A model generated the notes under the pieces. It saw only the letters and a program-made list of their open reading frames with translations, made no database searches and was not told where the DNA came from. 35,014 nucleotides of DNA from a virus, in the IMG/VR virus record IMGVR_UViG_3300044620_000972, positions 1 to 35,014 of that record; one strand, given 5' to 3'. Within the stretch, counting starts at the first letter, position 1. The number at the start of each line of letters is the position of its first letter. The position numbers and the translations under genes were made by a program. This document shows, in pieces, positions 13,195 to 30,548 of the stretch.

Positions 13195-13235
13195 AAAAAA
13201 TCCCGACAAACTCTCGTCTGTCGGGATTTTCTTTT
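13195..13235 (-). terminator. Rho-independent terminator, likely bidirectional
   Basis: A perfect 10-bp stem AATCCCGACA / TGTCGGGATT (13199-13208 and 13219-13228) with a 10-base loop. On the minus strand it is followed by six T; on the plus strand by a T-rich run. It closes the unit from 16234 to 13248, directly before the tape measure promoter. Confidence 0.9.
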
Positions 13236-14928: not shown

Positions 14929-14936
14929 GATTTATG
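14929..14936 (-). promoter_or_regulatory. Late promoter of the gene at 14923 (CATAAATC)
   Basis: CATAAATC stands 5 bases before the ATG; one mismatch from the consensus at the last base. It overlaps the end of the upstream gene. Confidence 0.5.
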
Positions 14937-15612
14937 TACAATTAGTAAATACCCATTCTACTGTTTTAACATCTATTCTTTCTCCATCATAATTCAATTC
15001 GGAATCACTAATTGAATATGGGACACAACCAAAAAATTCGAATAATTTTCTTCTAGGTTTTCTTTCAAAACCTTTAGCTTTTGTATATTGAGAAACTCTA
15101 ATAGTAGCTTTAATTGAAGAATTACTTAGAGCAATAAGTCCTTCATAAGATGCTGTAATAATCCAAGGTTTAATGATACCATCATTGAAGTCTAAGTTGG
15201 TTTCCAAGAATCCTAAACTTAAGGATTTCTCACTCATTCCTATTCTATCACCTCCTACAGCAGATTTTAAATATCCACCCATGTTTTCCACAGATGCTGT
15301 ATTAATAGAAAAGGATTCTTTTGGTAATTTCATATTCTGAACAAAAAATAATCCAGAAGCATCTGGATCTGAAATTACTCCTCTAGTAGTTGAATTATAT
15401 AATTTATCCAACTGTTTCTGACCTAAAATAATACCATTATCTTTATAAATTCCTGATGAATCTCTTCCATTTAATTTACTCATTAAATAAGATTCATTCT
15501 CAGGAGTAATAGTAACAAACCATTGAGTAGTAAGTGGGACATCATATTCCCACTTACTAATCAAATCTAAAAATCTACTGGCGGGGCTATAGGTTTCTAA
15601 AGCTGTAGCCAT
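14932..15612 (-). CDS. Tube-fold tail structural protein
   Basis: The protein has 226 residues. The segment LETNLDFNDGIIKPWIITAS, then YEGLIAL, IKATIRVSQYTKAKG, RRKLFEFFGCVPYSI and a final strand VKTVEWVFTNCT follow the layout of gp19-like tail tube domains (a D-x-x-I-x-P-W segment, then sheet strands and a terminal strand with Val and Phe). It directly follows the tail tube gene with 16 bases between. It may be a tube initiator, a tail completion protein or a second tube protein; which one cannot be decided here. No late box precedes it, so it is probably co-transcribed with the tail tube gene. Confidence 0.5.
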   Translation of the reverse strand: MATALETYSPASRFLDLISKWEYDVPLTTQWFVTITPENESYLMSKLNGRDSSGIYKDNGIILGQKQLDKLYNSTTRGVISDPDASGLFFVQNMKLPKESFSINTASVENMGGYLKSAVGGDRIGMSEKSLSLGFLETNLDFNDGIIKPWIITASYEGLIALSNSSIKATIRVSQYTKAKGFERKPRRKLFEFFGCVPYSISDSELNYDGERIDVKTVEWVFTNCT

Positions 15613-22097: not shown

Positions 22098-22125
22098 AAG
22101 GGATGTCGAAAGACATCCCTTTTTT
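22098..22125 (+). terminator. Rho-independent terminator with GAAA tetraloop
   Basis: A 10-bp stem AAGGGATGTC / GACATCCCTT (22098-22107 and 22112-22121) closed by a GAAA tetraloop and followed by TTTT. It ends the acidic protein gene and lies two bases before the next late promoter. Confidence 0.93.
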
Positions 22126-26463: not shown

Positions 26464-26895
26464 TTATTGATTTTGTTGAAGTCGATTAATTAATTTAGAA
26501 TAGACCTCAGCGAATTTTTCGTCTTCTTTTTCTAGATTCACTGGGTCCGTTGATAAAAAACTTTTTACCTGAACATCTACAGCAATTTTTCTATCACAAT
26601 CTTGACATGTATAAGAGTTATCTCCATTCAATTCAATAGGTATAAAATGTCTACAAGCTCTATCACAAGGACAAGAAATTTCACAACCTTGTTTAGAATA
26701 TTCTTTCAATCTTTCATTATAAACCTTCTCAAACTTTTGCTTGAGATAATCTTTATAAACATTATAAATTACAGTTTGTACTACTGTAGTAAAAACAAAA
26801 TATTTTATAAAACCAATCCAATCATTTGAAAATAAAAACGCGACACTGCTACTTATAGTAAGTAGAGTTAATAAAGATTTCACGACATTAGTCAT
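26464..26895 (-). CDS. Membrane protein with a cysteine-rich, zinc-ribbon-like domain
   Basis: The protein has 143 residues. Two hydrophobic segments are visible at about 5-23 (LLTLLTISSSVAFLF) and 28-46 (GFIKYFVFTTVVQTVIY), a likely membrane hairpin. A basic linker follows, then six cysteines: C71-x3-C75-x-C77-x3-C81-x-H83 and C97-x2-C100, a layout that could bind one or two zinc ions. The C-terminal 40 residues are a charged helix. Function unknown. It leads a three-gene unit and has a late-like box (TATAAAATA) 5 bases before the start. It might act at the host inner membrane late in infection, which is inference only. Confidence 0.65.
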   Translation of the reverse strand: MTNVVKSLLTLLTISSSVAFLFSNDWIGFIKYFVFTTVVQTVIYNVYKDYLKQKFEKVYNERLKEYSKQGCEISCPCDRACRHFIPIELNGDNSYTCQDCDRKIAVDVQVKSFLSTDPVNLEKEDEKFAEVYSKLINRLQQNQ

Positions 26896-27775: not shown

Positions 27776-28797
27776 CGACATCCACTAAGACTAACCATTC
27801 CTCTCAATCCAGTTTGAGAGTTATCTAGAATATACTTATAAGGTATTTCTATACCAGTCTTTGAACGCATAATAATATCATTAAAGTCTTTAAAACACTT
27901 TCCTAAATCTTTAGGCCAGATAAAAACGGTTTCATTCATCTCTAGTAATTTTTTAGTTTTACTATGAGATGCTGAATCAATCCATTGAGAATCTAGAACC
28001 CAAATTCTTTTCTTAAAGTCTAAACTATTAATTTGTTCTTTTTGTTTTTGATTGAACAAAACATAAGACTTCTCTTGAATTCCTCCAACAGCTACACCAT
28101 TCTTACAAAAGAATGAATTGATTGGACCTTCAAACACGAATACATAATCTGAATTAGGATCAACTCTATCAAAGTTAAATAAGCTTTTTTCGCCATTCTG
28201 TTTTGAAATATACTTAGGCAATTTATCAGATGATAGTAATGTTCTACTTTGGTAAAAAACTACTTTACCGTCATCATCATAAAATGGTAATACTAATCTA
28301 TTTTTATGAACTCTATCAGTTAATGAGATATAAAGAGCTTTTGGCTTATTAATAGCTACATCCAACTTTCTATCCTTAACATATTTTAAGGCTACAGAAA
28401 CGATAGCATTAGATTTATAATAATCTACTTGTATAGGATCAAATAAATTGATAGAGTCTTCTGGTAATGAAGGCGTCTCAGACTTTTGTATATTGTTTGT
28501 ATTATCTTGCTGAAGAATGTCGTACTTATTATTCTCAAGATCTTTGATTAGTTCTCTGGGAGACATTCCAGTAATTTCAACTAACCAATTAAATGTATTT
28601 TTTTTGTAACCGCAATTATGACAATACAAAAGATTTTTATCAGGTATGTAGAAAAATCTCTGTTTCTTATTCCAAGAATTTCCCTCTCTACAATGAGGAC
28701 AAGCTGCTTGGTACTTGTTAGTGCCGACAACCCTCTTAGCTCTTCCACCATATTGGAAGAACTTACAAACAACATATTCTTCTGGCACTAAGATCAT
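27772..28797 (-). CDS. 61: DNA primase, gp61-like (zinc finger plus TOPRIM)
   Basis: The protein has 341 residues, the length of T4 gp61 (342). An N-terminal zinc finger has C33-x2-C36 and C59-x2-C62, with RFFYIPDKNLLYCHNCGY between and around. The TOPRIM domain has the catalytic Glu in VFVFEGPINSFF (Glu223) and acidic residues in IWVLDSQ (Asp269). The enzyme makes RNA primers for lagging-strand synthesis together with the gp41 helicase, encoded about 4 kb away. The gene has no late box; a consensus-like sigma-70 promoter lies directly before the ATG and a long inverted repeat spans the start. Confidence 0.93.
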   Translation of the reverse strand: MILVPEEYVVCKFFQYGGRAKRVVGTNKYQAACPHCREGNSWNKKQRFFYIPDKNLLYCHNCGYKKNTFNWLVEITGMSPRELIKDLENNKYDILQQDNTNNIQKSETPSLPEDSINLFDPIQVDYYKSNAIVSVALKYVKDRKLDVAINKPKALYISLTDRVHKNRLVLPFYDDDGKVVFYQSRTLLSSDKLPKYISKQNGEKSLFNFDRVDPNSDYVFVFEGPINSFFCKNGVAVGGIQEKSYVLFNQKQKEQINSLDFKKRIWVLDSQWIDSASHSKTKKLLEMNETVFIWPKDLGKCFKDFNDIIMRSKTGIEIPYKYILDNSQTGLRGMVSLSGCR

Positions 28798-28829
28798 ATA
28801 AGAATCTTAACAGCACCAGAAGAATATGT
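28772..28829. repeat. Inverted repeat spanning the primase promoter and start codon
   Basis: A perfect 14-bp inverted repeat (ACATATTCTTCTGG at 28772-28785, its complement at 28816-28829) encloses a second 6-bp stem (TAAGAT / ATCTTA, 28789-28794 and 28804-28809). The 9-base inner loop (28795-28803) contains the primase ATG. One outer arm is coding (codons 5-9); the other lies in the promoter spacer. Confidence 0.9.
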
Positions 28830-28832
28830 CAA
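28804..28832 (-). promoter_or_regulatory. Sigma-70-type promoter of the primase gene
   Basis: A perfect -35 TTGACA (28827-28832), a 17-base spacer and a -10 TAAGAT (28804-28809), which ends 6 bases before the ATG. Transcription would start at or next to the A of the ATG. Confidence 0.75.
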
Positions 28833-28839
28833 TGATTTC

Positions 28840-29049
28840 TTATACGCTTCTGAATTGATAAGTAACGTCTTCTCTAGTTTTAGCGTCTAAAACTTTAACA
28901 ATACCTTTCTTTAAAAAAGTACCGCTACTTGGATCAATCCAAACAGCTTCTACATGAATTTTATCTCCAACTACAGTTTCTGTAATCCTTGGTTGAACTG
29001 GATTACCAGAAATTTGTGATGTGATTATTTTTGGTTGTACTAGGTTCAT
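28840..29049 (-). CDS. Hypothetical small protein
   Basis: The protein has 69 residues and is not recognised. It is predicted to be mostly beta: VQPKIITSQISGNPVQPRIT, then DKIHVEAVWIDPSSGTFLKK, a GIVKVLDA strand and a final TYQFRSV. The small beta-barrel look might suit a binding or accessory subunit. It has a late box (AATAAATA) exactly 5 bases upstream, although it sits inside the replication block, so it may be expressed late. The box overlaps the stop of the preceding gene. The stop is 42 bases before the primase start. Confidence 0.65.
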   Translation of the reverse strand: MNLVQPKIITSQISGNPVQPRITETVVGDKIHVEAVWIDPSSGTFLKKGIVKVLDAKTREDVTYQFRSV

Positions 29050-29489: not shown

Positions 29490-29811
29490 TGACTGTAGGT
29501 ATTCCTTTTTCTACTAATATTTGAACTATAACTTCAATTGACTCTGTACTAACAGAATAATTCTTTTGGAAATAATTTCCACCATCGTTAAATTCAAACA
29601 TTACTTGGTTATTAAAATCTTTATTATGATAGCATGTTAAAAATATTGAAGCTCCACCGGGATCAATTAATACAACCCATTTTCTAGGGTCGATAATATT
29701 AAACTGCTGAAATACTCTCAAGACACAGTATCCAGAATCTCTCATTCTTTTAATGAAATATCCGGGTGTCTTAATCTTATTTTGCTGACGTTTATTAATT
29801 GTTAATTTCAT
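29428..29811 (-). CDS. Hypothetical protein downstream of the sliding clamp
   Basis: The protein has 127 residues and is not recognised. It starts with a basic region (MKLTINKRQQNKIKTPGYFI), followed by RMRDSGYCVLRVFQQFNIID, strands KWVVLIDPGGASIFLTCY and VMFEFNDGGNYF and a C-terminal helix IEVIVQILVEKGIP. No motif for a known activity is visible. Its ATG overlaps the stop of the sliding clamp gene as ATGA, so translation is likely coupled to the clamp. A replication or clamp-linked role is only suggested by this position. Confidence 0.65.
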   Translation of the reverse strand: MKLTINKRQQNKIKTPGYFIKRMRDSGYCVLRVFQQFNIIDPRKWVVLIDPGGASIFLTCYHNKDFNNQVMFEFNDGGNYFQKNYSVSTESIEVIVQILVEKGIPTVNETNKYYKQKPERATSNDNP

Positions 29812-30548
29812 TGTTCGTGAGCAGAAGCTACATATTTCAAAATATAGTTATTATCAAAAATATCGATTGCAATAACACCTACATTAGTATTTATAGAAAC
29901 ACCAACATCATTGGTTTTGTGTCCTGTAATCATTTTAAATAGATCGAATGGGAATGGAACAGATTTTACATTACTACCATCATACGTTTCTGCAATCTTC
30001 ATACTAAAAGTATCCACATTTCTCTTAGTCTTATCATCCAATTCAGCACTGACTCCAACACCATCAGTAGAAATATAAATCTTATTACTATTAGTAATAA
30101 ATGCAGATGATTTAATCAATGATGTAAACACATCAGACTTTACCAAGAACTTAGTATCATACTGAAATTCCATTAACTTTTTAATAGAAACTTTTGGAAG
30201 TGGAATGTTTGATTCATCTGTTAAGAAGATTTTAAACTTATTATTCGTACCAATATATTCAATATTGTTGGAATTCACAATCAGATCTACTGATGGTTCT
30301 TGAATCATATCAAGTGCCTTAATGAGCTTTTTAATGTCAGAAAAACCTAGGTTTAGGTTATCACCACTATATGTAATGTCATCACATTTTGCATATAACT
30401 TAATATTATTCTCAGCATTAACCAAAGAAAAAACGTGTCCGTCACGTAAAGTGAGCAGACACGTTTCTTGTATTCTAGAGATTGGTGTTAAAAACTTGCT
30501 TACAAAATTATTCTTGTTTTGTAGAGTTATTTTTCGAAAGGTTTCCAT
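29808..30548 (-). CDS. 45: Sliding clamp (DNA polymerase processivity factor), gp45-like
   Basis: The protein has 246 residues from the ATG at 30548 (T4 gp45 has 228); an in-frame ATG at 30569 would add seven. The clamp layout shows an N-terminal helix and strands (NFVSKFLTPISRI, CLLTLRDGHVFSLV), LNLGFSDIKKLIKALDMI, a long linking strand (IEYIGTNNKFKIFLTD), a second domain starting DTKFLVKSDVFTSLIK and the final sheet IAIDIFDNNYILKYVA. The trimeric ring tethers polymerase to DNA. In T4 the clamp also activates late promoters, relevant here because late boxes are numerous. The gene overlaps the preceding one by 41 bases and lies in the gp32-to-primase block. Confidence 0.75.
   Translation of the reverse strand: METFRKITLQNKNNFVSKFLTPISRIQETCLLTLRDGHVFSLVNAENNIKLYAKCDDITYSGDNLNLGFSDIKKLIKALDMIQEPSVDLIVNSNNIEYIGTNNKFKIFLTDESNIPLPKVSIKKLMEFQYDTKFLVKSDVFTSLIKSSAFITNSNKIYISTDGVGVSAELDDKTKRNVDTFSMKIAETYDGSNVKSVPFPFDLFKMITGHKTNDVGVSINTNVGVIAIDIFDNNYILKYVASAHEQ
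30431..30466. repeat. Intragenic hairpin in the sliding clamp gene
   Basis: A 9-bp stem AAACGTGTC / GACACGTTT (30431-30439 and 30458-30466) with a second inner 4-bp stem TCAC / GTGA (30442-30445 and 30451-30454) around a GTAAA loop. It falls near codons 27-40 of the clamp. Confidence 0.7.

Follow-up and report, generated by a model that had tools for sequence, protein, structure and literature searches.

A T4 gp61-type primase gene in a stretch of DNA of 35,014 bases from a T4-like phage (IMG/VR virus record IMGVR_UViG_3300044620_000972, positions 1–35,014; the window) has its start enclosed by a 14-bp perfect inverted repeat with a nested 6-bp stem, which places the ATG in a 9-nt apical loop and the gene's own promoter within or over the 5′ arm. 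This anatomy, put forward in a preliminary description of the DNA, was confirmed by reading the sequence. Our preferred reading, held tentatively, is that the structure is quite possibly a start-codon-sequestering RNA hairpin, the spacer arm of which was made by template switching and then kept. RNA from the primase promoter would start at the AUG without the 5′ arm, would form no hairpin and would be translated as a leaderless mRNA. Read-through RNA from the upstream gene, which carries a late-type promoter motif, would contain both arms and form a stem some 20 pairs long with the AUG locked in the apical loop, and primase would not be made from it. The spacer arm would most likely have arisen by a one-step template switch copying codons 5–9 in reverse complement, and may later have been kept by selection, further templated correction, or both. 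The anatomy, the promoter spacing, the upstream late-like motif, one compensatory change and an excess of complementarity across relatives were shown from sequence; the transcription start, read-through and translational silencing we infer.

Primase gene, promoter and upstream gene

The assignment of the downstream gene as primase was borne out by a profile match to phrog_47 DNA primase (E 1.7e-34) and by tblastn against 1866 phage records, in which the best rows were annotated DNA primase or gp61. Among the 20 matches listed, similarity to gp61 was approximately full-length (92–98% query coverage) at 27–30% identity. A gp32-like protein and a DnaB-like helicase are encoded near the primase; no close nucleotide relatives were found among annotated phages. 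Coordinates are collected in Table 1.

Table 1. Features at the primase start of the window
Feature	Position	Strand	Remarks
DNA primase, T4 gp61-type, 341 aa	27772..28797	-	phrog_47 match and tblastn
3′ outer arm in mRNA	28772..28785	-	primase codons 5–9, CCAGAAGAATATGT on the - strand
3′ inner arm	28789..28794	-	codons 2–3, ATCTTA in mRNA (TAAGAT on the + strand)
Apical loop, 9 nt	28795..28803	-	holds the primase ATG (28797–28795)
5′ inner arm	28804..28809	-	-10 box TAAGAT (ATCTTA on the + strand)
5′ outer arm	28816..28829	-	promoter spacer and ACA of the -35 box
-35 box TTGACA	28827..28832	-	17 nt from the -10
69-aa upstream gene	28840..29049	-	AATAAATA precedes the start, late-promoter-like, gap 5 nt

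The outer arms are complementary at 14 of 14 positions with 30 nt between them, and the coding arm encodes the conserved protein stretch PEEYV. When G-U pairs are allowed, the stem on the mRNA strand comprises 20 consecutive pairs, with a predicted folding energy of -30.1 kcal/mol compared with -22.3 kcal/mol for the antisense strand.

The primase promoter is sigma-70-like (TTGACA-17-TAAGAT) and ends 6 nt ahead of the ATG, so that the primase mRNA should be leaderless. The promoter is thus positioned as had been proposed, for RNA starting at the ATG, with the start point estimated from the spacing. An SD-like sequence was present ahead of 1 of the 37 gene starts in the window, and phage transcripts are described as often leaderless (PMC5312081). 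A promoter abuts the start codon in the majority of the listed gp61 relatives, and the gap between -10 and start was 6 nt in 41 of 61 nonredundant relative loci; this common gap suggests that RNA would begin at the start codon in the relatives as well. The start-abutting promoter is a family trait, whereas the exact hairpin is not.

Similar arrangements were observed at other genes. The 143-aa gene at 26464–26895 (-) has a strong sigma-70-like promoter (TTGACT-16-TAAAAT-6-ATG), and in many relatives the corresponding place downstream of primase holds a gene of about 140 aa with the same leaderless-type promoter. A putative sliding clamp (29808–30548, -) was assigned by size and position, with no convincing family match; at the matching place in relatives, promoters of genes of about 243 aa likewise abut the start codon.

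The 69-aa upstream gene gave no match in Pfam or PHROG. The late-like motif before it is AATAAATA in the window and in the relative L005 and TATAAATA in the relative L004; late promoters are given in PMC2984593 as NATAAATA for T4-like cyanophages and TATAAATA for T4. Many starts in the window have a TAAATA-type motif 5–6 nt upstream. Across the loci, TAAATA-N5-ATG was found 56 times and TAAATA-N6-ATG 44 times, with all other spacings from 0 to 24 found 2–29 times each, hinting that late genes may also be expressed as leaderless mRNAs. No terminator was predicted between the 69-aa gene and primase, the nearest one lying inside the upstream gene. With a late-like motif upstream and no predicted terminator between the genes, late read-through is plausible, and the suggested upstream source of read-through RNA is upheld to that extent.

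Hairpins at primase starts

The repeat is the sole perfect inverted repeat in the window with arms of at least 13 and a loop of at most 60. Repeats with arms of at least 14 were contained in 2 of 40 whole-window dinucleotide shuffles; taken alone, the 14-bp repeat is rare but not impossible by chance. Folding of the site gave z -6.06 on the + strand (0 of 200 shuffles as extreme) and z -5.86 on the mRNA strand from -40 to +40 (0 of 200 upstream shuffles as extreme). The primase start was the most extreme of the 37 gene starts, the other 36 averaging z -0.06. By MFE prediction and against upstream shuffles, the start region lies within a stable helix of upstream-initiated RNA. The predicted probability of the AUG being unpaired in the window was not lower in read-through RNA (0.67) than in leaderless RNA (0.65), because the AUG occupies the loop.

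Rfam returned mir-137 (27.8 bits, gathering threshold 56.7) and mir-29 (22.4 bits, gathering threshold 46.7), both sub-threshold; these matches to animal microRNA precursors were put down to the chance resemblance that any long hairpin may show. Two further perfect inverted repeats of the window contain GC and have arms of 11 and 12 nt; the first lies between genes (1700–1749), the second inside the gene at 14932–15612 (15528–15559). Long terminator-like hairpins are located at 13197–13230 and 22098–22121; the latter, with a GAAA loop and a T run, overlaps the ATG listed for the gene at 22103, a start that may therefore be wrong.

Conservation of the pairing with compensating changes, named as a check in the preliminary description, held in one close relative and failed in another and in most of the more distant ones. 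The primase protein of L003 is identical to that of the window. L004 (86% aa identity) retains the hairpin: in the outer stem a T-A pair has become C-G by one compensatory pair of changes, a synonymous one in the coding arm (GAA to GAG) and a single one in the 5′ outer arm that restores pairing, and in the inner stem TTA to TTG turns a U-A into a U-G pair. L005 (77% aa identity) has the promoter at equal spacing but has lost the hairpin, its start region folding no better than upstream shuffles (z +1.02, p 0.86); the -10 box TAAGAT is kept in both. Comparison of the window with L004 showed differences at 35 of 83 fourfold sites of the primase gene (0.42) but at 1 of 17 spacer bases, the latter difference being compensated (binomial P about 0.001–0.003 under neutrality). 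A dyad at the aligned start of the gp41 helicase gene was not seen in L152 and L153, contigs of L004 and L005.

For the survey of distant relatives, 17 of 76 listed relatives were omitted, being near-duplicates or having no visible promoter (L085, L087, L096, L100, L104), and the window, L004 and L005 were added, giving 62 loci. Fourteen loci (L013–L024, L026, L027), in which the upstream gene runs into the primase start, were unused, as were L106 and, for too little upstream DNA, L046 and L065. From the pooled tests, L040, L122, L135 and L136 were excluded for a wrong -10 call or no promoter, and L164 as a repeat of L033. Individually, 14 of the 62 loci reached p ≤ 0.05 against upstream shuffles. 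In two sets added later the same level was reached by 1 of 19 and 0 of 9 loci, some rows repeating earlier contigs (the set of 19 includes L110, L113 and L128 from the 62-locus survey).

Hairpins in the distant relatives are sporadic, mostly of 5–10 bp, and differ in shape and sequence. Three shapes were distinguished: around the -10 (L036, L038, L059, L062, L094); around the -10 and start codon, with codons 4–9 as the 3′ arm (the window, L004, L009, L081); and around the ATG (L071, L082, L142, L149). Between L071 and L082, a change in one arm of the stem is matched in the other, and the hairpin of L009 is absent from its closer relatives. In L035 (near 5899, -) and L045 (near 4946, -; both positions strand-specific), the -10 of a 139-aa gene similar to the 140-aa gene is covered by a palindrome, AGATTATATTATATAATCT.

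Complementarity across relatives and alternative explanations

Complementarity was assessed by a swap test, in which each phage's upstream part was joined to the downstream parts of the others (20000 permutations); near-identical upstream regions were collapsed beforehand, except in those duplex tests run on all loci. With the split after the -10, swapped pairs were as good as own pairs in 9 of 20000 permutations with the window (n = 69) and in 77 of 20000 without it (n = 68); with the split at the start codon and the window left out, the count was 159 of 20000. Duplexes of spacer and discriminator gave 0–1 of 20000 (0 of 20000 for 51 nonredundant loci), and the mirror and complement controls stayed at chance level. 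Pairing of the spacer with codons 4–10, the outer-arm geometry of the window, was at chance level in nonredundant loci (9827 of 20000) and was therefore given up as a family-wide feature. The antisense strand scored at least equally well (0 of 20000) and Watson-Crick pairs alone gave the strongest family signal, so RNA, DNA and mutational causes are not separated by these tests. An asymmetry of G-U pairs, promising in single phages as proof of an RNA element, was dropped because the unbiased antisense test was equally strong. A fixed-register covariation map of 35 loci gave no clear helix. At clamp promoters the swap test gave 504 of 20000 and the mirror control 1285 of 20000; as the control was also low, complementarity is not claimed there.

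The coding arm is homologous across relatives, whereas the spacer arm is not and equals the exact reverse complement of its own coding arm; a templated copy is therefore probably the simplest origin. The same observation suits the main rival of the preferred reading, a serious one that we nevertheless consider rather unlikely, namely that the palindrome is a neutral by-product of template switching: a replication slip copied codons 5–9 into free promoter spacer and later switches keep the arms matched, with no function. Perfect stems can arise and persist through such switches (PMC8794818), the hairpins are gained and lost between relatives, and the strongest signal comes from Watson-Crick pairs alone. 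The window also holds 17 perfect inverted repeats with arms of at least 10, many of them within genes, compared with 5.9 in shuffles, and 14 relatives pooled hold 26 long perfect inverted repeats compared with 13. This excess of about 2–3-fold fits a mutational tendency and fits terminators and other functional hairpins equally. Against neutrality, the excess complementarity at the primase start is absent from the promoters of the neighbouring 140-aa genes, where the swap test gave a chance-level result (9904 of 20000). The spacer conservation between the window and L004 is also what concerted evolution by template switching would produce, but the conserved stretch extends beyond the arm to the 6 nt before the -10, two of which pair only as U-G or G-U on the mRNA strand and have stayed uncorrected.

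A DNA-level element, a dyad operator or cruciform spanning the -10 and regulating the primase promoter, is improbable in our estimate. It would account for the dyads on or near the -10 in the five relatives of the first shape, for the equal signal on both strands and for the strength of Watson-Crick pairs, but the dyad has no fixed register across relatives and its arms vary between phages. A sequence-specific operator, raised in the preliminary description, is disfavoured by these differences, which in L036 and L009 extend to the two promoters of one phage (in L036, GCTTTG at primase compared with GTGG at the 140-aa gene). As the promoters of one phage have different arms, an operator shared by several promoters was rejected as the main reading. 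Equally doubtful is an RNA processing or 3′-end element, in which the stem would serve as a substrate for a double-strand RNase or protect the upstream transcript at its 3′ end. The 20 consecutive sense-strand pairs just past the upstream stop codon are in keeping with it, as is the lack of a T run after the stem, for which reason the hairpin is not an intrinsic terminator (none was predicted at this site); the hairpins of the relatives, however, are mostly too small to fit, 5–10 bp being short for RNase III.

A broader form of the preferred reading, in which a group of SD-less T4-like phages would time its genes by leaderless mRNAs from two promoter classes abutting the start codons, appears unlikely at present. 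In it, hairpins arising again and again by template switching at the primase start would let early leaderless RNA be translated and block late read-through RNA, the T4 lysozyme switch in reverse.

Comparison with known systems

A hairpin over the start that forms in read-through RNA and is absent from RNA of the inner promoter is known from the IS10 and IS50 transposase genes. Those cases differ from the primase case in that the repeat is a transposon end, the gene is SD-led and no phage replication gene is involved.

The closest known mechanism is that of T4 genes e, soc, 49 and I-TevI, for which start sequestration by a hairpin containing the promoter is established (PMC3014915); the likeness is one on paper, with function inferred for the window. 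As described there, and as predicted here, the start region lies in a helix of a longer, upstream-initiated RNA, and the sequence of the 5′ strand contains or adjoins the promoter, so that the inner RNA escapes. In the T4 class a late inner promoter (TATAAATA) is combined with silencing of early RNA, whereas the window combines a sigma-70-like inner promoter with a late-like one upstream. The T4 hairpins hide an SD and/or AUG of lysis, capsid or homing genes; in the window there is no SD, the AUG is probably leaderless and the gene is a replication gene. With its timing reversed and no SD, the primase hairpin would be a variant of this class and not a member.

The RNA hairpins attributed to template switching in PMC8794818 likewise have a perfect stem, matched changes and an origin in one reverse-complement copying event; as described there, they were shown for RNA genes, whereas the present case is a promoter-coding junction. 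Among the titles and opening parts of abstracts listed from the open-licence literature, none reported a primase-start hairpin or leaderless primase in T4-like phages. Should the proposed silencing be wrong, the site would still provide a clear-cut case of a promoter with a templated palindrome. Should it be right, a single templated mutation could make a regulatory hairpin from a coding stretch, a phage would shut off an early gene through the start point of the RNA, and the T4 lysozyme switch would be mirrored at a replication gene of phages that seemingly rely on leaderless mRNAs.
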